From: Nocardioidaceae bacterium | GTDB lineage: Bacteria > Actinomycetota > Actinomycetes > Propionibacteriales > Nocardioidaceae | DNA: 64,000 nt | Direction: 5' to 3' | NCBI GenBank assembly: GCA_030447585.1 | Contig: JAUJOO010000001.1 | Location: forward strand, 154,213-218,212 | Shown here: piece by piece, positions 24,651-43,868 of the stretch | How the letters are laid out: each line of letters begins with the position of its first letter | Position numbering within the stretch: position 1 is the stretch's first letter | Position numbers and translations under genes: made by a program | The notes under the pieces: generated by a model | Seen by the model: the letters and a program-made list of their open reading frames with translations, nothing else | Told to the model about the DNA's origin: nothing | The model's database searches: none

Positions 24651-26333
24651 TCACACGAGCGGCGCTGCACTGCGGATCGTCAGGCCGACGCCAACGAGCA
24701 AGACCAGCGCTGCAGTGATGATCGGCGCGGCGGTCGCCAAGCGAGAGATCCAACGGTGTCGGGCAAGGACGCGCAAGCGGCTCAAGCGGCCGGGCAGCTT
24801 GGCGATCAAGTAGCCGATCGTCGTGAGGGTGACGGCCATCCCGATGCCATAACCGACCACAAGGGCGACTCCGAACACGGTGCGGCCCAGCGCGATAGCC
24901 CCCAGCAAGACGATCAATGCAGATGGGCTAGGCACCAATCCACCGGCGAGTCCCATGCCCACCAGAGTCAGCCTGCGGAAACCGCGGTCTTCCGACGGTC
25001 GAGCCGGGTTGTCGCCATGCGCATGGTCGGGGACGTTCGCATGGGCGTGACGGGTGGCTTCGTGCGAGCCGCCGTCGGCCCCGACGGACGAGACGGTTGC
25101 TGGTGCCGCACCGAGGAGGAAATCCTCTCCTGGTCGGGGTCGGTCCTCCGTCTGCGGCACGGTCACCAGCAGGGCGTCGTCGCCATGCTCATGGCCATGC
25201 CCGTGACCATGGCCGTGTCCATGACCGTGCCCGTGGCCGTGACCCCACAGCTCGTCGACGGACCCTTGGTGGCGGCGACGCAACGCACCCCGCACCAGGG
25301 CCAGGCCGATACCCGCCACGAGCAGACCACTGATGACTCCGAGCACGGCCAGAACGGTCTCACCCGCGAACGACACCGAGGCGCTGAACAGCAGCCCGAG
25401 CAGGAGCACACCGACGGTATGGGTCAGCGTCACCGTGGCGGCGATGACCACTGCGTCCTTCGGTGAGCCGCGGGTACCGACCATGTACGCCGCCATCAAC
25501 GTCTTCCCGTGCCCAGGCAGCGCCGCATGCGACACGCCCAGTAGGAGCGACAGCAGCACGGCCAGCACCCCCACCCCGATTGTCAGCTCGGAGCTGCCGA
25601 CGAGGGAGTCCAGCCGCGCCGTCATCGCGCTGAGAAAGGAGGCGACTGGTCCGGCCTTCGGGAGCTCAGGGAGGTCACCGAGATCGGCATTCGTGCCGGG
25701 CCGCGTCTGGAGCTGAATCGAGCGCTGGTCGAGCGGCGAGCTCAACAAGTCGTCGGGATACGCCCGTAGCTCGTTGCTGATGCTCTCCGCGACAACGTCG
25801 CGGTCACCGAGGTCGAGCCCTTCACCGGTGGCCGTGATCTCGCGCCACCCGATCCGGTCCTCGAGGTAGCGGTCGACGAACGACACGGAGGAAGGTTGTC
25901 GCAGGTCGACGACGGCGTTCAGCGAACACTCCAGTCGGCTCACCTTGAGTCCCGCTGCCCCCGGTCGGTAGCCGAAGGACGACGACACCACGGTCCACGG
26001 CACCCGGGACCCGTTGACACGAAGCTCGAGCTGATCGGCGAGCGACGTGCACCGTGAGTCGGCAAAGACGCTTCGCTCGGCAGTAGAGGCTTCTCCGTCA
26101 CCGTCGGCATCGACAGTGTCGAACTCCTGGATGGTAGGCAGCTCCGCCGAGTCGATGACAGCGGTATTGCGCACCCCACCGGTGCTGAGCTCCAGGCCGT
26201 TGTAGTGGTTAATCGTGAAGTTGCCGAGCGGATGCGCGCTGGCGGGAGCGATGGGAAGCGCGAGGAGCACCACGACGAGCCCGACGACGTATGCGGCCCT
26301 TCGCCCGAGGCAGCGACGGCGCGTCGTACTCAC
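24651..26333 (-). CDS. NicO/RcnA-type nickel-cobalt transporter with lumenal N-domain and His-rich loop
   Basis: About 560 aa from GTG 26333, 4 bp after the TPR gene stop; the track start at 26360 is a TTG overlapping that gene. Parts: signal peptide ending PASAHPLGNFTINHYNG; an extracytoplasmic domain with an EF-hand-like loop DADGDGEAS; six or more helices with NicO motifs SHAALPGHGKTLMAAYMVG and ATVTLTHTVGVLLLG; and a long metal-binding loop (eight HG dipeptides in a row, then HEHGDD, and HAHANVPDHAHGD). It closes with GMGLAGGLVPSPSALIVLLGAI. Family members move Ni2+/Co2+ across the membrane, mostly outward for RcnA. Last gene of the DUF4331-sortase-TPR-NicO set. Confidence 0.88.
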   Translation of the reverse strand: MSTTRRRCLGRRAAYVVGLVVVLLALPIAPASAHPLGNFTINHYNGLELSTGGVRNTAVIDSAELPTIQEFDTVDADGDGEASTAERSVFADSRCTSLADQLELRVNGSRVPWTVVSSSFGYRPGAAGLKVSRLECSLNAVVDLRQPSSVSFVDRYLEDRIGWREITATGEGLDLGDRDVVAESISNELRAYPDDLLSSPLDQRSIQLQTRPGTNADLGDLPELPKAGPVASFLSAMTARLDSLVGSSELTIGVGVLAVLLSLLLGVSHAALPGHGKTLMAAYMVGTRGSPKDAVVIAATVTLTHTVGVLLLGLLFSASVSFAGETVLAVLGVISGLLVAGIGLALVRGALRRRHQGSVDELWGHGHGHGHGHGHGHGHGHEHGDDALLVTVPQTEDRPRPGEDFLLGAAPATVSSVGADGGSHEATRHAHANVPDHAHGDNPARPSEDRGFRRLTLVGMGLAGGLVPSPSALIVLLGAIALGRTVFGVALVVGYGIGMAVTLTTIGYLIAKLPGRLSRLRVLARHRWISRLATAAPIITAALVLLVGVGLTIRSAAPLV

Positions 26334-26337
26334 AAGC

Positions 26338-27669
26338 TCAGCCGCTCCGACGAAGCTCAATCAGCGCTTGGCGGGCTTGCGGCGCGAGGAGCGGCGAGAA
26401 ATACGGGTTGATCTCAAGCGCTCGCTCCAGAGATCGGGTGGCTTCGGGCACCATACCCAGCGACTTCTCGATCATGCCGCGGTGGAACGCGAAGAGTGCG
26501 TTGCGCATACCGATCCGCTCCGCGGCGATGGCATGGGTCAGTGCCTTTCGGTCTTTGCCGTTGACGTGCAGAGCCCATGCGTAGGCATCCTCGACGAACA
26601 CGCCCTTGCGCTCTTTCCACGCCGCACGTGTCGCGGTGAGGGCCTCGTACTCACGACCGTTCGATGCGTCGTACACCGCGAGCTCCAAGTCCAGGTTGAC
26701 TCCCGCTGCGCGCTGAAGCTGCACCTGCGCATCGATCAGGTCACGCTGCTCGGCCGCTTCCGCCGGCCGGTCGAGGGACGTGAGGAAGTCGGCGTACTCG
26801 ATGAGGTACTGAGGTTGCGGAAGCCGCTCGATCACCCGCTCGTACCGGGCGACTGCCTTCGCGTCATCGCCACGTGCTGCCGCGGTCTTTGCGAGACCGT
26901 AGAGGTTCGGCACCCACGACGGGGCGAGGGTCAGCCCCTGACGGTACCGCCGTGCCGCCTGCGACAGGTCACCCTGGTTCCAAGCCAGCTCGCCGAGCTG
27001 GAAAAGAGCGAAGGCCTTGTCGTCGGTGGAGTAAGCGACCTTCAAGGCCTGGCGCATTGCATAGTGAGCACCCCGCAGGTCCCCCCGCAGCTCGTAGCTG
27101 TAGGAGACGCGCGAGTACGACGGCACGCCCGGCTTCAGGTCGACCATCCGCTGCAGCTCCCTGAACGCCTCGCCATAGCGGCCGAGCTCGACCAGCGCGT
27201 CCACCATCACACCGAGGCTCACCGAGTCGTACTCGTTGATGCGCTGCGCCTGACGAGCCAGCTGAAGCGAGCGTCCGAACCGGTGCCGGGCTGCGGCCAG
27301 TGCGGCCTGGCCAGTGAGGGCGGGCGCGTTGCTCTCCGGCTGCTCGCGAAGGGAACGGCGGAACGCGCCGGCCGCTTTGCCGTAGTAGGTCGGATCTCCG
27401 CTGACCCGGGCCTGCTGCACGTACGCCAGCCCCAAAGCGGCCCACGACCCGGAGTCCGCGGGAACCCGGCGCAGCCGAGCCTGCAACGATGCGATGGCGT
27501 CGGTCGCATCGCCTGGGCCGCTGACGGCTTCTACGCTGACTGCGCCTCGGCCGGCGGGACTCGGCGGGTTCGAACTGCTTGGCGTGATGACGACCGCCCC
27601 AACCAGCAGTGCTGCCAGAGCCAGGCCGACCGCTGCCGCCGCGAACCGCGCCAACCGGCTCCGGCTCAC
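26338..27669 (-). CDS. Tetratricopeptide repeat protein, membrane-anchored
   Basis: A 443-aa protein with an N-terminal membrane anchor or signal (FAAAAVGLALAALLVGAVVI) then TPR-like helix pairs through the rest: WAALGLAYVQQARVSGD, PALTGQAALAAARHRFGRSLQLARQA, VDALVELGRYGEAFRELQRMVDLKPG, ALFQLGELAWNQGDLSQAARRYRQGL, MIEKSLGMVPEATRSLERALEINPYF. It probably faces outward and scaffolds other surface proteins. Its GTG start overlaps the upstream sortase stop by 4 bp (GTGA), and the NicO start follows 4 bp after its stop, so the three genes are tightly coupled. Confidence 0.85.
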   Translation of the reverse strand: MSRSRLARFAAAAVGLALAALLVGAVVITPSSSNPPSPAGRGAVSVEAVSGPGDATDAIASLQARLRRVPADSGSWAALGLAYVQQARVSGDPTYYGKAAGAFRRSLREQPESNAPALTGQAALAAARHRFGRSLQLARQAQRINEYDSVSLGVMVDALVELGRYGEAFRELQRMVDLKPGVPSYSRVSYSYELRGDLRGAHYAMRQALKVAYSTDDKAFALFQLGELAWNQGDLSQAARRYRQGLTLAPSWVPNLYGLAKTAAARGDDAKAVARYERVIERLPQPQYLIEYADFLTSLDRPAEAAEQRDLIDAQVQLQRAAGVNLDLELAVYDASNGREYEALTATRAAWKERKGVFVEDAYAWALHVNGKDRKALTHAIAAERIGMRNALFAFHRGMIEKSLGMVPEATRSLERALEINPYFSPLLAPQARQALIELRRSG

Positions 27670-28550
27670 TTCTTGGCCTTCGTCACGAGACGTGCTGAGA
27701 CCACCAGGTTCTCGCTGTACTGACCGGTGTCGCGGTCATACGTCCCGCCACAGGTGATGAGGTGCAGCAGCGGGGGACCGTCGTCACGGTAGACGCGGTC
27801 GGAGGGAAAGTCCGTCCGCGAGTAGAGCACGCTGTCGAAGATTTTGAACGTGGCGGCCGTCGAGTCGGCTCGTTCGACCCGGACCAGGTCGCCGACCCGC
27901 AGGGAGGACAACCCGTAGAAGACGGCGGGACCGGTCGGAGAGTCGACATGGCCGACGAACACGGCAGCACCCCGCTCCCCAGGTCGCGGTCCGGTGTGCC
28001 ACCAGCCGACGTCACTCCAGCGCTGCGGCACCTGAAGTGCCCCGCCTACGACATCCAGATTGACCAGCCCCTTCTTCAGACCGATCGCGGGAACCACGAG
28101 ACGGGTTGGAACCGCGACGGCGGCGTCCGACGCCTGCGCGGGTCGAGTCTTGATCGGTTCTGCGAGCGGGGCCCTTCCGCGGTACTTCGGAACGACGAGC
28201 TTCTGTCCCACCTCGATGGAGTTAGGGTCGGCCAGGGAGTTCAGCCGGATGATTCTCGTGACCACGTTTTGGGGGTTCTTGCCCGGGGCGTAGGTAGCCG
28301 CGATCCCCCAGAGGCTCTGACCCGCCTCCACCGTGACCTTTCTGGTCGCCGGCTTTGCTCGCGAGGGCGGCGGCTCCTCTGGCCGATCCTTGAGTCGCTG
28401 CTGCTTGAGTGGCGACGCAGGCAGGCTCGCAGCCGGTTGCGGCTCCGCCTTCGCAGAGGCGCCGCCAGACCCCACGCCCATGAGGTAACCGGACGCGAAC
28501 ACCGACAGGCAGGCGAGGATGCCGGCGACGGCCACTCCGACCTTTTGCAT
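27666..28550 (-). CDS. Sortase with LysM domain (class E/F type)
   Basis: About 294 aa from ATG 28550. N-terminal helix VGVAVAGILACLSVFASGYLMG, a LysM peptidoglycan-binding domain (VEAGQSLWGIAATYAPGKNPQNVVTRIIRLN to GQKLVVP), then a sortase barrel with catalytic His in VFVGHVDSPTG, Cys in LLHLITCGGTYDRDTG and a likely Arg just beyond. Sortases join surface proteins to wall cross-bridges. Start choice: the track GTG at 28610 would translate straight through a strong hairpin at 28563-28592 that looks like a DUF4331 terminator, so ATG 28550 is preferred, though its Shine-Dalgarno is weak. The LysM fusion should hold the enzyme at the wall. Confidence 0.85.
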   Translation of the reverse strand: MQKVGVAVAGILACLSVFASGYLMGVGSGGASAKAEPQPAASLPASPLKQQRLKDRPEEPPPSRAKPATRKVTVEAGQSLWGIAATYAPGKNPQNVVTRIIRLNSLADPNSIEVGQKLVVPKYRGRAPLAEPIKTRPAQASDAAVAVPTRLVVPAIGLKKGLVNLDVVGGALQVPQRWSDVGWWHTGPRPGERGAAVFVGHVDSPTGPAVFYGLSSLRVGDLVRVERADSTAATFKIFDSVLYSRTDFPSDRVYRDDGPPLLHLITCGGTYDRDTGQYSENLVVSARLVTKAKK

Positions 28551-28562
28551 GATGCCGCCAAA

Positions 28563-28592
28563 GTGGCGGGCGGAAGCTTGCCCGCCCGCCAC
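28563..28592 (-). terminator. Hairpin between DUF4331 and LysM-sortase genes
   Basis: GTGGCGGGCGG, an 8-nt spacer, CCGCCCGCCAC: a perfect 11-bp stem 24 bp after the DUF4331 stop; on the minus strand it is followed by TTT only. Probably a weak terminator or attenuator that lowers sortase expression relative to its abundant substrate. Confidence 0.6.
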
Positions 28593-28615
28593 CTCTTTGT
28601 GCTCTGACACCTGGC

Positions 28616-30223
28616 TCAGGCCTCGACCTGACCCCGACGGTTGCGCCGAAGCAGCCAGAAGCCGTACGCGGCGAAGCCGAGTCCGAGTGCTGCGGCAGCG
28701 GACGCGAGAGCAGGAGCTCCGGTGTCGTCCGTGGTCACCGAATCAGCCCTCTGGCCGAGGTCACGCCGGTTGGGTGCGACCGCACCTTGGTCAGCGGTTC
28801 CACCGCCACCCGCCGAGACGCCACCGGACGGCGAGGCAGCTCCCGCGTCAGCCGAACCAGAGTGCGGCAAGGCGACGTACGGGAACGTGGACTCGAACGC
28901 AAGGTCGTTTGCATCGACAGCGTCGCCGGCGGCCAGTGCCTCGACGAGCTTGCCGGTGCGCACAGCGCCTTCGAGGGCCTGGATCTCGATGTCAACGACA
29001 TCATCGACCAGGCGGCGACCATTGGGGAAGCCGCCGGTGTCCCCAGCCAGCACACCAAGCCTGTTGGGCTCAGCGGTGGGCGGGATCGATGTGTTCAGTC
29101 GCAACATCTCAGCTGGCTGCACCTTGCCCTTGGGCTTGTTGAGCCCCTCGACCCCGGTGAGGAACACCGCGAACAAGTCCTCGCGGGGTGTCTTCGGAGC
29201 GGGGATGCCGTAGATGGCTTCGATCAGCTTCGGCACCTCTGGGTCGTTGACCCTGTCGACTGCCGCAGCGACACTCGCGTCGTTTTCCGGCGCAAGCGCG
29301 TTGAAGGCGTCTTTCAGTGCGATGGGGATGACGACCTCGTTGACCAAGGGGTTGCCGAGGCGGGACACCTGCACGAAGTCGCCCTTGTAGGTCTGCGTTC
29401 CATCCGCGTGGTGCACCTTCATGGCGGGGCGGTCGGTCGTGCTCCAGACACCGATGACGGGGTCGTTCTTCCCGCCGGTCAAGTTTTCAATCGGCACCTG
29501 AAACGCGATGGTGTTGACGTTGTAGCCAGACAGCGTGTCCATTCCGGTCTCGCTCAGGTCAGCGCCGTACAGCAGGTCGAACACCCGCAGATCCAGGAAG
29601 AACGGGTCGTCGGCCTGGCCGGCGAAGGTGAGCTCCCCTGGTTCAGATGTCGGCCTGATGGCCTGGTCGCGCAGCGAGGCGTAGTCCGGCATCGAGGCTT
29701 GGCCAACGTTGGACGGAGCCACGGGGACGTTCTCAGCCAGAACTTTGGAGCTGCCGCCCTTGATGCGGGTCAGCGTGTACGTCTGCTTGAAGTTCAAGGT
29801 GGGGTCGTCGAGAGACGTCACCGGACCGGTGTTGTAGAGGAACGTGTCCTTCGTCTCGTAGGAGCTGTCGAAGTCCCACATGTAGGTGATGTCCTCTTTG
29901 GCGTCGCCGTTGTTGTCGATCTTGATGTTGTAGTGAGCCTCGTCGGCGAACGGGTAGAAGTTGGGGCCGCCGGCCGGCTCCTCGAAGGGCAGCCAGTTGG
30001 CGATCAGTGTGACGGTGTCTGGCTTGTCCGGACTTACGAACGCGTACACGTCCGTGTTGTCCGCCTGTGGGTCAGCAAGGAGCTGGGGCGCCTCGCGGTG
30101 GCTTGATGCGGAACCGGTCTCTGGCCCGAGCAGCGCCGCTGCTCCAAGAAAGGCCAGGGCTGAGGATGTTAATGCGGCCGTGGTGGCACGTAAGGGCCGC
30201 CTTGGGTGGGACAACGAAGACAT
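28616..30223 (-). CDS. DUF4331 surface protein with C-terminal anchor
   Basis: About 535 aa from ATG 30223 (AAAGGA upstream; the track start is longer and unsupported). Sec signal peptide (TTAALTSSALAFLGAAALLGPETGSAS), then the DUF4331 body with its opening SSHREAPQLLADPQADNTDVYAFVSPD and the domain's recurring FYPFADEAHYNI, DLRVFDLLYG and NVNTIAFQVPIENL. After a Gly/Ser linker the protein ends VTTDDTGAPALAS, a hydrophobic helix (AAALGLGFAAYGFWLL) and RRNRRGQVEA. That is the layout of a sortase substrate, but with D-D-T-G in place of LPxTG. Function of DUF4331 is unknown. Neighbouring sortase genes on both sides support wall anchoring. Confidence 0.88.
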   Translation of the reverse strand: MSSLSHPRRPLRATTAALTSSALAFLGAAALLGPETGSASSHREAPQLLADPQADNTDVYAFVSPDKPDTVTLIANWLPFEEPAGGPNFYPFADEAHYNIKIDNNGDAKEDITYMWDFDSSYETKDTFLYNTGPVTSLDDPTLNFKQTYTLTRIKGGSSKVLAENVPVAPSNVGQASMPDYASLRDQAIRPTSEPGELTFAGQADDPFFLDLRVFDLLYGADLSETGMDTLSGYNVNTIAFQVPIENLTGGKNDPVIGVWSTTDRPAMKVHHADGTQTYKGDFVQVSRLGNPLVNEVVIPIALKDAFNALAPENDASVAAAVDRVNDPEVPKLIEAIYGIPAPKTPREDLFAVFLTGVEGLNKPKGKVQPAEMLRLNTSIPPTAEPNRLGVLAGDTGGFPNGRRLVDDVVDIEIQALEGAVRTGKLVEALAAGDAVDANDLAFESTFPYVALPHSGSADAGAASPSGGVSAGGGGTADQGAVAPNRRDLGQRADSVTTDDTGAPALASAAAALGLGFAAYGFWLLRRNRRGQVEA

Positions 30224-30676: not shown

Positions 30677-31432
30677 TCAGCGAGCGGAGACCAGGTGTGC
30701 GAACGCTACAACGTTACCGAGGTAGCCCGCGTCGTCGTCATAGTTCCCGCCGCAGGTGATGAGGCGGAGCTCGGCTCGGTTGGTGGTGTCCCCGTACACC
30801 TCGTGGGTGGGGAACTCTGCCTTGGCGAACGCCTCGACGCGGTCGATGAGGAAGGTACCGACCGTGCCGTCCGCCCGCGTCACGTGCACCCGGTCGCCGG
30901 GGTCGAGCTCTCCGAGGCGATAGAACACGGCCGGGCCGCGGTCGCTGTCGACATGTCCGGCGATGACCGCAGGCCCGAACTGACCTGGTGACGGCCCGGG
31001 GTAGAACCAGCCTGGTGCGGAGGGGTCCTCAGGGACCTCGATGGCGCCGTCGGCTGCCAGACCAAGGTCCACGATGTTGGTGCTGTGGACGCCAATGTCC
31101 GGAATGTCGAGAGCGACCGGTGCGGAGGCGGGAAGGATCGGGCCGAAGTCGATCGCCTTGTCAGGTCGACCGCTGGGGACACCCTCCTGGGGTTGAGAAC
31201 TTTCCTTGCGTTGCTTGTTCTGCTGCTTTGTGACTGTCGTGGATTGCGGCTCGGGGGAGGGCAGGGGAGCGGCTGAGTCGCTGGCAGCCGCATCGCTCAC
31301 AGGCTGCGGGGGACCGCCCGAGGTGCGCATTCCGACGGCGATGAGTGCCACCCCGATCAGGAGCAGCACAACTGTGGCCGCCGCGGCAGTGTGTATGCCG
31401 CGACGGCCTCCGGGTTGGGTGGGGTTGGTCAT
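30677..31432 (-). CDS. Class E/F-type sortase
   Basis: About 251 aa from ATG 31432, which overlaps the TAA stop of the CHRD gene (TAATG), so coupling is expected; the longer track start is a frame shadow of the CHRD gene. Membrane anchor TAAAATVVLLLIGVALIAVGM, a Ser/Pro/Lys-rich linker, then a sortase domain: LDIPDIGVHSTNIVDLGL, catalytic His in VIAGHVDSDRGPAVFY and Cys in LRLITCGGNYDDDAGY. Arg is not obvious in the usual place after the Cys (GNVVAFAHLVSAR supplies the only candidate). Same general class as the LysM sortase 2 kb downstream but without LysM. Confidence 0.87.
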   Translation of the reverse strand: MTNPTQPGGRRGIHTAAAATVVLLLIGVALIAVGMRTSGGPPQPVSDAAASDSAAPLPSPEPQSTTVTKQQNKQRKESSQPQEGVPSGRPDKAIDFGPILPASAPVALDIPDIGVHSTNIVDLGLAADGAIEVPEDPSAPGWFYPGPSPGQFGPAVIAGHVDSDRGPAVFYRLGELDPGDRVHVTRADGTVGTFLIDRVEAFAKAEFPTHEVYGDTTNRAELRLITCGGNYDDDAGYLGNVVAFAHLVSAR

Positions 31433-32194
31433 TACGCCTGGGTGCGGGTGCGGCGGGCGGCGACGGCTCCGGTGCCGACGGCGATCAGCACGAGGCTGCC
31501 GCCGAGGGCGATCAGGGCGGTGTCGCTGTCTGCTGCGGTGCCACCGTTGCCGGTGTCGGCTCCGCCGGCGGGGGCGGCGAACAAGACGCCACACAGGGCC
31601 GGGTCGGTGGCCTCGGTGGGCAGGCTCGGGTCGAGGTCGGACTTGACTGCGCCGTCGTACTTGCCGCTGTTGTTGTGGTCGACGCCGTGGATGACGACAA
31701 CCGACTCGCCGTTGGCGATGGCGGTGGCGATCTCGGGGCGACGGTGATGCTGCCGCGCTGGTAGGAAAGCTGGCCGCCGGGTGCGGTGTCGAAGCGGTCA
31801 ACGGCCAAGACGCTGTCGGGGCTGGTGTCGCCGGTCTTGGTCAGCGATACCACGACCGGGCCGTAGGCCGGTGCGCCGTCGGTGGTGTTGATCCTGCCGT
31901 CGTTTCCTGCGTCGTCGGCGGCGACCGGGCACTCGTGGCGGGCGTCGGCAGCGAAGTGGATGTGGGCCGCGTGGGGCATGTCGGGCAGCAGGCCGGAGGC
32001 GGCCATGGTGACGTTGATCTGGTTACCGTCGACCTGCACCATGGCGGTGCCGCTGCCGCTGACGCCGTTGAGGGGACCGGCTGCAGGTTGGCGGAGGTGT
32101 CTCCGTCGGCTGCCAGTGCGGTGCCCATGCCCAGGAAGGGCGAGGCGGCCAAGGTGGCGACTGCCAGCCCGGCCAGCTTGTGAGATGTACGCAT
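31432..32194 (-). pseudogene. CHRD-domain surface protein, copy 1 (two frameshifts)
   Basis: Reading from ATG 32194 (MRTSHKLAGLAVATLAASPFLGMGTALAADGD), the frame is lost at 32071-32074, where the sequence has AGGGGACC against AGGGCGACC in copy 2. It is lost again at 31735-31738, a run of four G against five in copy 2. Corrected, it is a 254-residue protein with signal peptide, CHRD domain (SGTAMVQVDGNQINVTMAASGLLPDMPHAAHIHF), and C-terminal ADTG, helix and Arg tail, like copy 2. The intact downstream sortase start overlaps its stop. Whether the indels are genuine decides if this copy is dead. Confidence 0.85.
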
Positions 32195-32483
32195 TCGGTG
32201 ACTCCGATTTCGTTGGGCGGACAACTACCGCCATCGTGGATGTCTCGTAGAAGGTTCGTCACCGACCCGGGACCGGATTGGTGCCGGCCGACATTCCGCA
32301 ACCCCTCCACCAGCTCCAAACGCTCCACCAGCAGGTGCCGCCACGCCCGGGTGCGCGACCCGGTACCCCGCCGCCCTCGGCGCCCAACGTTGCGGTGTGG
32401 GACAGCAATCCCTTTGCGGTGCCGCGCCGAATCACCACTACGTGGACGACCCGGTCCGCAGCCACGCCCAGGAAGACCACCCG
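32195..32483. promoter_or_regulatory. Divergent CHRD/cupredoxin promoter region, copy 1
   Basis: 289 bp between the divergent starts. The 60 bp next to the CHRD start and the 90 bp next to the cupredoxin start are almost identical to copy 2 (43576-43868), while the centre differs. That conservation marks the likely promoter and leader elements. No consensus -35/-10 could be fixed by eye. Confidence 0.6.
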
Positions 32484-32837
32484 ATGACGACCAAGCCAAC
32501 CATCCTCACCGTCGCAGTACTGGCCCTACTTGCCACCGGATGCAGCTCATCGGACCAACAAACCTCCGCAGAAGGCGATACGCAACAAGGCAGCGGCCCG
32601 GTGATCAGCATCCAGGAGTTCGTTTACGACGAGCCTGAGTCGGTGACACCGGGCGCCGAGGTCACGGTCACTAACGAGGACAGTGCGGCCCACACGGTCA
32701 CGGCAGACGATGGCGCCTTCGACGTCACCGTCGACGGTGACGCAACGGCGACGTTCACCGCCCCGTCGAAACCGGGCGAGTACACCTACGTGTGCGACTT
32801 CCACCCCGACATGACCGGCACGTTGGTCGTACAGTGA
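32484..32837 (+). CDS. Cupredoxin (plastocyanin-like) lipoprotein, copy 1
   Basis: 117 aa from ATG 32484 with AGGAAG upstream. Lipobox LLATGC places the mature Cys near residue 20. The cupredoxin domain carries type 1 copper ligands: His in NEDSAAHTVTA, and the Cys, His and Met of YVCDFHPDMTGTLVV. It should be a small electron carrier or copper binder on the outer face of the membrane. Its stop overlaps the next gene start by 4 bp. It is the short partner of the copy at 43869, which has an extra Lys/Ser/Pro linker. Confidence 0.9.
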   Translation: MTTKPTILTVAVLALLATGCSSSDQQTSAEGDTQQGSGPVISIQEFVYDEPESVTPGAEVTVTNEDSAAHTVTADDGAFDVTVDGDATATFTAPSKPGEYTYVCDFHPDMTGTLVVQ

Positions 32838-42715: not shown

Positions 42716-42811
42716 TCAGGCTCGGCGTCGGGCTTCGCTGACCAAAATGGCGGTGGCCGCCGCGGCAGTGTGTATGCCGCGACGGCCACCGGGTTGGGTG
42801 GGGTTGGTCAT
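42716..42811 (-). pseudogene. Severed 5' end of the sortase gene
   Basis: Downstream of the copy-2 CHRD gene and overlapping its stop (TAATG), the first 20 codons of the 31432 sortase are preserved (MTNPTQPGGRRGIHTAAAAT). The repeat then ends, and the frame runs into unrelated AILVSEARRRA and stops. It shows that the duplication was copied from the sortase-linked locus and cut inside the sortase. Confidence 0.9.
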
Positions 42812-43575
42812 TACGCCTGGGTGCGGGTGCGGCGGGCGGCGACGGCTCCGGCGCCGACGGCGATCAGCACGAGGCTGCCGCCGAGGGCGATCAGGGCGGT
42901 GTCGCTGTCTGCTGCGGTGCCACCGTTGCCGGTGTCGGCTCCGCCGGCGGGGGCGGCGAACAAGACGCCACACAGGGCCGGGTCGGTGGCCTCGGTGGGC
43001 AGGCTCGGGTCCAGGTCGGACATGGGCTTGCCGTCGTACTTGCCGCTGTTGTTGTGGTCGACGCCGTGGATGACGACAACCGACTCGCCGTTGGCGATGG
43101 CGGTGGCGATCTCGGGGGCGACGGTGATGCTGCCGCGCTGGTAGGAAAGCTGGCCGCCGGGTGCGGTGTCGAAGCGGTCAACGGCCAAGACGCTGTCGGG
43201 GCTGGTGTCGCCGGTCTTGGTCAGCGATACCACGACCGGGCCGTAGGCCGGTGCGCCGTCGGTGGTGTTGATCCTGCCGTCGTTTCCTGCGTCGTCGGCG
43301 GCGGTGGGGCACTCGTGGCGGGCGTCGGCAGCGAAGTGGATGTGGGCCGCGTGGGGCATGTCGGGCAGCAGGCCGGAGGCGGCCATGGTGACGTTGATCT
43401 GGTTACCGTCGACCTGCACCATGGCGGTGCCGCTGCCGGCGACGCCGTTGAGGGCGACCGGCTGCAGGTTGGCGGAGGTGTCTCCGTCGGCTGCCAGCGC
43501 GGTGCTCATGCCCAGGAAGGGCGAGGCGGCCAAGGTGGCGACTGCCAGCCCGGCCAGCTTGTGAGAGGTACGCAT
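42811..43575 (-). CDS. CHRD-domain surface protein, copy 2 (intact)
   Basis: 254 aa from ATG 43575, with GGAG 7 nt upstream (the track start at 43605 is a TTG). Signal peptide MRTSHKLAGLAVATLAASPFLGMSTALAADG, then a CHRD fold: GSGTAMVQVDGNQINVTMAASG, HAAHIHFAADARHECP and two Asp-rich stretches. It ends PAGGADTGNGG, a short linker, a hydrophobic helix (LIALGGSLVLIAVGAGAVAA) and RRTRTQA. CHRD proteins are secreted and mostly of unknown role. The C-terminus resembles that of DUF4331 (xDTG plus helix plus Arg), so anchoring by the local sortases is likely. Confidence 0.88.
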   Translation of the reverse strand: MRTSHKLAGLAVATLAASPFLGMSTALAADGDTSANLQPVALNGVAGSGTAMVQVDGNQINVTMAASGLLPDMPHAAHIHFAADARHECPTAADDAGNDGRINTTDGAPAYGPVVVSLTKTGDTSPDSVLAVDRFDTAPGGQLSYQRGSITVAPEIATAIANGESVVVIHGVDHNNSGKYDGKPMSDLDPSLPTEATDPALCGVLFAAPAGGADTGNGGTAADSDTALIALGGSLVLIAVGAGAVAARRTRTQA

Positions 43576-43868
43576 TCGGTGACTCCGATTTCGTTGGGCG
43601 GACAACTACCGCCATCGTGGATGTCTCGTCGTACAAGGTTCGTCACCGACCCGGGATCGGATTGGTGCCGGCCGCCATTCCTCGACGCTCCAGCAGCTTC
43701 AAACGCTCCACCAGCAGATGACGCCCGGATGCGCGCCCACCGCGCCCACCGCGCCCACCGCCGCGCCCAACGCCGCGCCGGTGTGGGCAGCAATCCCTTC
43801 GCGGTGCCGCGACGAATCACCACTACGTGGACGACCCGGTCCGCAGCCACGCCCAGGAGGACCACCCG
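43576..43868. promoter_or_regulatory. Divergent CHRD/cupredoxin promoter region, copy 2
   Basis: Same arrangement as 32195-32483. The centre contains a short tandem array, CGCGCCCAC repeated three times near 43735-43758, that copy 1 lacks. Flanks are nearly identical between copies, marking the conserved promoter or leader blocks. Confidence 0.6.

Follow-up and report, generated by a model that had tools for sequence, protein, structure and literature searches.

A conserved DUF4331, TPR and NicO gene module, joined by a class-F-type sortase in a Nocardioidaceae bacterium, as a candidate system for metal handling at the cell surface

Among the closest described systems are the anglerases, outer domains of HupE/UreJ-2 permeases that bind Cu (Kd about 62-74 nM) and, in the case of Ang-1, also Ni (220 nM) via an N-terminal His, and that are proposed to pass the metal on to their permease, i.e., to serve uptake (PMC12537917). 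The Ang-1 domain of one HupE/UreJ-2 protein has been solved with bound Cu (PDB entry 9gce); NicO permeases are not mentioned in the text of that paper. Here, we analyze a window, i.e., the whole stretch of 64,000 nucleotides of contig JAUJOO010000001.1, from the metagenome-assembled genome (MAG) of a Nocardioidaceae bacterium (3.1 Mb, 55 contigs, 88.6% complete). In this window the genes for a DUF4331 protein, a class-F-type sortase with a LysM domain, a TPR protein and a NicO permease form a single tight operon on the minus strand (Table 1). We lean toward the reading that DUF4331, the TPR protein and a permease with a metal-binding N-terminal His domain constitute a conserved cell-surface module for the handling of Ni/Cu-type metals, to which the sortase has been added in this lineage. 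The identity of the metal, the direction of transport and the biochemistry of DUF4331 are inferred parts of this proposal.

The original prediction, made from the sequence alone, placed four closely spaced genes here, and both their spacing and their identities hold. The DUF4331 and sortase genes are separated by a 5-bp gap, the sortase and TPR genes overlap by 4 bp, and the TPR/NicO junction is either a 4-bp gap (GTG start at 26333) or a 23-bp overlap (TTG start at 26360), while each of the four assignments is backed by Pfam. A scan for sigma-70 promoters, of a type ill-suited to this host genome, gave no match. To assess how conserved the linkage is, we derived profiles from the proteins of the window and searched with them every open frame at 80 loci of close relatives and at 40 loci of a phylum-wide sample. 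Neighbors were counted for DUF4331 genes followed by 4.5 kb or more of sequence (66 and 36, respectively). Across these actinobacterial loci, the TPR gene lies near DUF4331 in 63/66 close relatives and 29/36 members of the phylum-wide sample. NicO, which the original prediction had linked to DUF4331, is far from a rare neighbor, with 63/66 and 20/36. The linkage is not due to chance; it is kept far beyond chance and beyond this locus. A class-F-type sortase is found at 16/66 and 2/36 loci only, and from these three pairs of counts we derive a core of DUF4331 and TPR, usually complemented by NicO, with the sortase as a facultative insertion.

The operon recurs in Actinomycetota, Pseudomonadota and Cyanobacteriota, and the DUF4331-TPR pair also in Bacteroidota. 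Plasmid loci of Comamonadaceae, Burkholderiaceae, Acetobacteraceae, Marinobacter and Pseudoalteromonas mostly show the order DUF4331, (a small gene), TPR and HupE/UreJ-2; in these beta- and gammaproteobacterial and acetobacterial plasmids the slot of NicO is occupied by a HupE/UreJ-2 permease with an N-terminal His. In Nostoc, DUF4331, TPR and NicO are followed by a gene annotated as PEP-CTERM, and Adhaeribacter (Bacteroidota) has DUF4331-TPR. On Rhodobacterales plasmids (loci L208, L282, L283, L284 and L285), DUF4331 has genes for type II secretion and for an A24 prepilin peptidase next to it, as though it were served by a dedicated secretion system.

One indication of metal handling comes from the permease, the only NicO protein of the host genome (PF03824, 35.6 bits, above the cut-off of 27.7). 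Its outer domain is predicted from sequence to start, after a signal peptide ending in AxA, with a mature N-terminal His-Pro (HPLGNF) that is invariant in 60/60 NicO homologues, as are Asp30, Ala32 and Glu33 (A2 numbering), whereas a Cys pair is nearly invariant. In the AlphaFold model (mean predicted local distance difference test, pLDDT, 77) this domain mostly reaches values of at least 90, and its best fold match in the PDB is the Ang-1 structure 9gce (E 1.2e-3, probability 1.00, TM 0.47 on target). Because an invariant mature His is combined with an anglerase domain as the best fold match, NicO is likely a metal-fishing permease that captures metal with its outer domain. We regard this domain as likely anglerase-like and do not call it an anglerase. 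In Gram-negatives, the HupE proteins that take this position in the operon likewise have His as the first residue of their mature part, and an EF-hand-like loop and a Cys pair are features they have in common with NicO. Such a loop had been highlighted in the original prediction. It is indeed present in the NicO protein of the window, but it is not conserved across NicO homologues and the outer domain has no Pfam EF-hand match at E<=10, and an EF-hand Ca/metal site was therefore rejected as the key feature. The His-rich loop, also predicted, is both present and conserved: together with the HxxxPGHGK and HT motifs of the membrane part, it is common to the 60 NicO homologues. Its placement could be refined to the region between the membrane halves, where by analogy with RcnA it would face the cytoplasm. 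The host genome encodes a Ni superoxide dismutase and a NiFe-hydrogenase-family large subunit, so a need for nickel exists in the host, although no urease match was found in its genome.

A further part of the analysis concerns the sortase and its presumed substrate. In class F sortases of Actinobacteria, an Asn replaces the catalytic Arg (PMC6998099). Four class F sortases have been deleted without a phenotype, and the proteins beside srtF1 and srtF4 lack a known motif (PMC13251363, 2026); in the literature found, the substrates of class F sortases are otherwise uncharacterized. The operon sortase scores 155.1 bits with the class F model NF033748, 11 bits under the curated cut-off of 166. Catalytic His and TC are present in 123/123 class-F-type sortases, both window sortases included, and Asn occupies the usual class F position in 99%, in agreement with the published replacement. 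The LysM domain, part of the sortase as originally predicted, recurs in just 2/20 other DUF4331-linked sortases; it was rejected as a feature of the module and is a lineage-specific addition.

Sortase-linked DUF4331 proteins end in P-x-G-G-V-x-[TA]-G-x-G-G-[TLA]-[AS], followed by a membrane segment and basic residues. Among 123 DUF4331 genes, the motif PxGGVx[TA]GxGG with membrane segment and basic end occurs in 25/25 sortase-linked and 0/98 sortase-free members. Motif and sortase change 9 times on the tree, with agreement in 7/7 independent pairs (sign test p = 0.016), p-values here being optimistic as the regular expression was relaxed after inspection of both sets. Free of this bias are a Pro at position -4, which was not part of the expression (19/19 and 29/36), and the NCBIfam model GVDTG_CTERM (NF058571), which matches 10/10 tested class F neighbors at E<=1e-4, two of them above the cut-off. 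Other frames with a membrane-plus-basic tail carry the motif in 36/50 cases near a class-F-type sortase vs. 2/120 far away, and shuffled linkers yield means of 2.2 and 2.5 against 22 and 36 observed. The first expression had also matched five DUF4331 proteins without a linked sortase, but in the membrane segment or the domain body, and these matches disappeared with the Pro-anchored motif. As a bare DNA motif the pattern is not enriched in the whole genome (37 matches vs. 47 for the reversed pattern), and it is thus meaningful only in its C-terminal context. The signal type is already known to NCBI curators; the DUF4331 version falls below their cut-off and is not recognized in annotation. We therefore rejected the view of a wholly new motif, since NF058571 covers the signal type, but a literature text search found no paper on GVDTG-type sorting signals. 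Tails beside class F sortases in loci L163, L173, L199 and L200 vary (GGVPAGGGP, GAVAAGGGP, AVNTG), suggesting sub-types of the signal.

It could be argued that the sortase is unrelated to DUF4331, their adjacency being accidental and DUF4331 merely membrane-anchored: most DUF4331 loci have no sortase, a search for an LPxTG/LAxTG motif in DUF4331 found none, and a long spacer separates motif and membrane segment in the tail encoded in the window. We consider this highly improbable, as motif and sortase co-occur in 25/25 vs. 0/98 cases and switch together, and three loci with two DUF4331 paralogues each (L047, L054 and L057) carry the motif on the sortase-linked copy only. The pairing of sortase and DUF4331 is strongly supported, and the operon sortase probably fixes DUF4331 to the cell wall, judging from the tail sequence. 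The wall anchoring of the original prediction is in this way supported by a matching sorting-type tail that is not of the LPxTG type, whereas the linkage to a sortase turned out to be a minority feature, yet with the matching tail whenever a sortase is present.

The DUF4331 protein itself is encoded by the sole gene of its family in the host genome, scores 541.6 bits with PF14224 (cut-off 27) with profile positions 1-421 covered, and consists of a signal peptide, a mature start at about ASSHREAP, the domain at residues 40-453, a Gly-rich linker, a C-terminal membrane segment and a basic tail. SSHREAP and FPNGRR-DD are strongly conserved, and the predicted structure is of good quality (pLDDT 84.7; predicted template modeling score 0.87). 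Among the papers searched, none mentions DUF4331 or PF14224. In the sortase-free DUF4331 proteins of Micromonosporaceae (Actinoplanes relatives; e.g., L060, L078 and L090), a conserved cytoplasmic D-P-[DT]-x-[TR]-[LF] end follows the membrane segment.

Several observations weigh against a metal handling module as proposed here. NicO is missing at 16/36 loci of the phylum-wide sample, and on the five Rhodobacterales plasmids neither TPR nor permease is in view next to the DUF4331 and type II secretion genes. Neither sequence nor fold comparison gives a significant PDB match for DUF4331 (best fold E 9e-3, probability 0.35), for which reason its fold was dropped as a functional clue, and, one His and several acidic residues aside, no metal cluster is conserved in it. 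The DUF4331 tail reaches 15.0 bits with NF058571, below the curated cut-off of 29. When their profiles are aligned with hhalign, the outer domains of NicO and HupE match weakly (probability 6%), and sequence profiles alone do not establish their homology. Finally, relatives of NicO such as RcnA are metal exporters. Part of these observations would fit a DUF4331 that is a secreted structural or ligand-binding envelope protein and not a metal protein, with TPR and permease acting in its export or maturation and metal as a mere cofactor. The type II secretion genes that stand in place of the permease in Rhodobacterales, the weak fold matches to beta-sandwich proteins, among them a carbohydrate-binding module of family 9, and the steadier presence of TPR than of NicO (29 vs. 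20 of 36) point in this direction. We nevertheless find it rather doubtful, as the permease slot has repeatedly been taken by Ni-type transporters from two different Pfam families.

The export activity of RcnA raises the question of direction. In a tolerance system, NicO would be an RcnA-type exporter of Ni/Co (or Cu), the outer His domain would sense or receive the exported metal and wall-bound DUF4331 would buffer it outside. The nearest subfamily model to NicO is indeed that of Ni/Co efflux by RcnA (PRK10019/NF007454), but its 112.3 bits are below the curated cut-off of 195; a His-rich loop likewise lies between the membrane halves of RcnA. In addition, many loci are flanked by genes typical of envelope stress control: of 120 loci, 43 have an extracytoplasmic function (ECF) sigma gene and 34 have an RskA-type anti-sigma gene, compared to 6/60 and 0/60 control loci that hold less DNA (0.48 vs. 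2.05 Mb). Such pairs adjoin the module in L243, L269, L206, L287 and about 40 others, in Actinobacteria as well as in Pseudoalteromonas, where they precede DUF4331; none is close to the operon in this window. Conversely, the cobalt uptake gene CbiM is near 7/120 loci, and an outer capture domain with N-terminal His has been proposed for uptake (PMC12537917). Tolerance seems unlikely to us, and uptake for Ni enzymes is slightly favored over efflux. The capture or tolerance function of the original prediction is supported as to metal handling, by the permease families NicO and HupE, the anglerase-like domain with its invariant His and the Ni enzymes of the genome, while capture and tolerance are not separable.

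Under the favored metal handling module, DUF4331 would be exported and its C-terminal segment would keep it in the membrane, after which the adjacent sortase may cut at the GVxAG/GVxTG-type signal and join DUF4331 to the wall, as the strong covariation suggests. The TPR protein might scaffold DUF4331 at the membrane, given its position in the operon. The outer domain of NicO would use its mature N-terminal His to bind Cu or Ni in a mono-histidine brace of the anglerase type, and would hand the ion to a NicO channel of six transmembrane segments, as suggested by fold, invariance and the anglerase precedent. The His-rich loop, by comparison with RcnA, may buffer or gate cytoplasmic metal, and DUF4331 would be the wall-side partner, perhaps a binder of metal or another ligand.

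Table 1. Features of the operon and of related genes in the window (positions counted from the first nucleotide of the window).
Feature	Position	Strand	Basis
DUF4331 surface protein	28616..30223	-	Pfam PF14224, 541.6 bits
Candidate sorting signal PSGGVSAGGGGTA, DUF4331 residues 465-477	28793..28831	-	weak NF058571 match
LysM and class-F-type sortase, N-terminal signal anchor	27666..28610	-	LysM 39.1 bits, Sortase 70.9 bits (Pfam)
LysM domain of operon sortase	28188..28334	-	Pfam
TPR protein, membrane-anchored or secreted	26338..27669	-	Pfam TPR_2 and others; conserved neighbor
NicO permease with anglerase-like outer domain (likely)	24651..26333 (GTG start) or 26360 (TTG start)	-	Pfam NicO
NicO extracellular N-terminal domain, from predicted mature N-terminal His (HPLGNF)	25695..26234	-	homologue alignment, fold match
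EF-hand-like loop DADGDGEASTAE in NicO outer domain	about 26076..26111	-	variable among NicO homologues
NicO membrane motif HAALPGHGK	25503..25529	-	H and PGHGK invariant
His-rich loop between NicO membrane halves, inferred cytoplasmic	about 25185..25241	-	
Second class F sortase, in a separate unit upstream	30677..31429	-	NF033748 188.8 bits, above cut-off 166
CHRD-domain protein, GVDTG-type tail GGADTGNGG at 31541-31566, two 1-bp frame breaks in assembly	31430..32193	-	
Intact CHRD paralogue, same sorting tail at 42920-42945	42811..43605	-	NF058571 39.8 bits, above cut-off 29

The window also holds the second of the only two full class F sortases of the host genome, and the only above-cut-off GVDTG_CTERM matches of that genome are the two CHRD proteins of the window, these two sortases and the GVDTG proteins lying within a 16-kb part of the window. 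The two CHRD genes are nearly identical, and the frame breaks of the copy beside the second sortase, relative to the intact copy, reflect either a recent duplication with decay or sequence errors in the MAG. The second sortase directly follows its CHRD gene; as the same pairing is repeated in L178 and L195, CHRD proteins are recurrent class F partners. Near this sortase, a cupredoxin-like (amicyanin-like) lipoprotein is encoded at 32397-32837 on the plus strand, a possible link to copper.

In summary, the operon is a new combination of known kinds of elements and not a new category. More tentatively, and as a possibility to which we give somewhat less than even weight, DUF4331, TPR and an anglerase-NicO (or anglerase-HupE) permease may form an undescribed metal acquisition machine of several phyla with DUF4331 as its extracellular receptor, delivered according to lineage by a membrane tail, by a class F sortase that acts on a GVx[TA]G signal, or by type II secretion. 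If true, this would provide class F sortases with a physiological role. The link to a permease with N-terminal His turns the orphan DUF4331 family into a testable metal hypothesis, PxGGVx[TA]GxGG offers a concrete candidate substrate signal for class F sortases together with a natural enzyme-substrate pair, and the NicO case extends the anglerase idea beyond HupE.

Compared to known systems, the module resembles the Isd/class B sortase systems of metal uptake in the concept of wall-anchored receptors that feed a membrane transporter, but lacks a class B sortase, a NEAT domain and an ABC transporter. With the class F sortases of Actinobacteria the operon sortase shares His, TC and the YxxN pattern as well as an adjacent small surface protein, while it scores under the NF033748 cut-off, carries a LysM domain and is embedded in a metal-type operon. 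The DUF4331 tail has the Gly-rich GVxTG core, membrane segment and basic tail of GVDTG_CTERM, in the form GVx[A/T]GxGG[T/L] that stays below the cut-off. Likewise, NicO/RcnA transporters have the PF03824 match above cut-off, the HxxxPGHGK and HT motifs and the His-rich loop in common with the permease described here, which differs by its extra secreted N-terminal domain, its score below the PRK10019 (RcnA) cut-off and its DUF4331-TPR operon setting. The anglerases Ang-1/Ang-2 fused to HupE/UreJ-2 (Franco Cairo et al., 2025, PMC12537917; PDB 9GCE) differ in their permease family (HupE_UreJ_2 instead of NicO, PF03824) and show no significant sequence similarity in the outer domain, yet they likewise have a signal peptide and a mature N-terminal His ahead of a Ni-type permease, their beta-sandwich domain is the best fold match of the NicO outer domain, and HupE/UreJ-2 proteins hold the corresponding operon slot in the Gram-negative relatives of the module.

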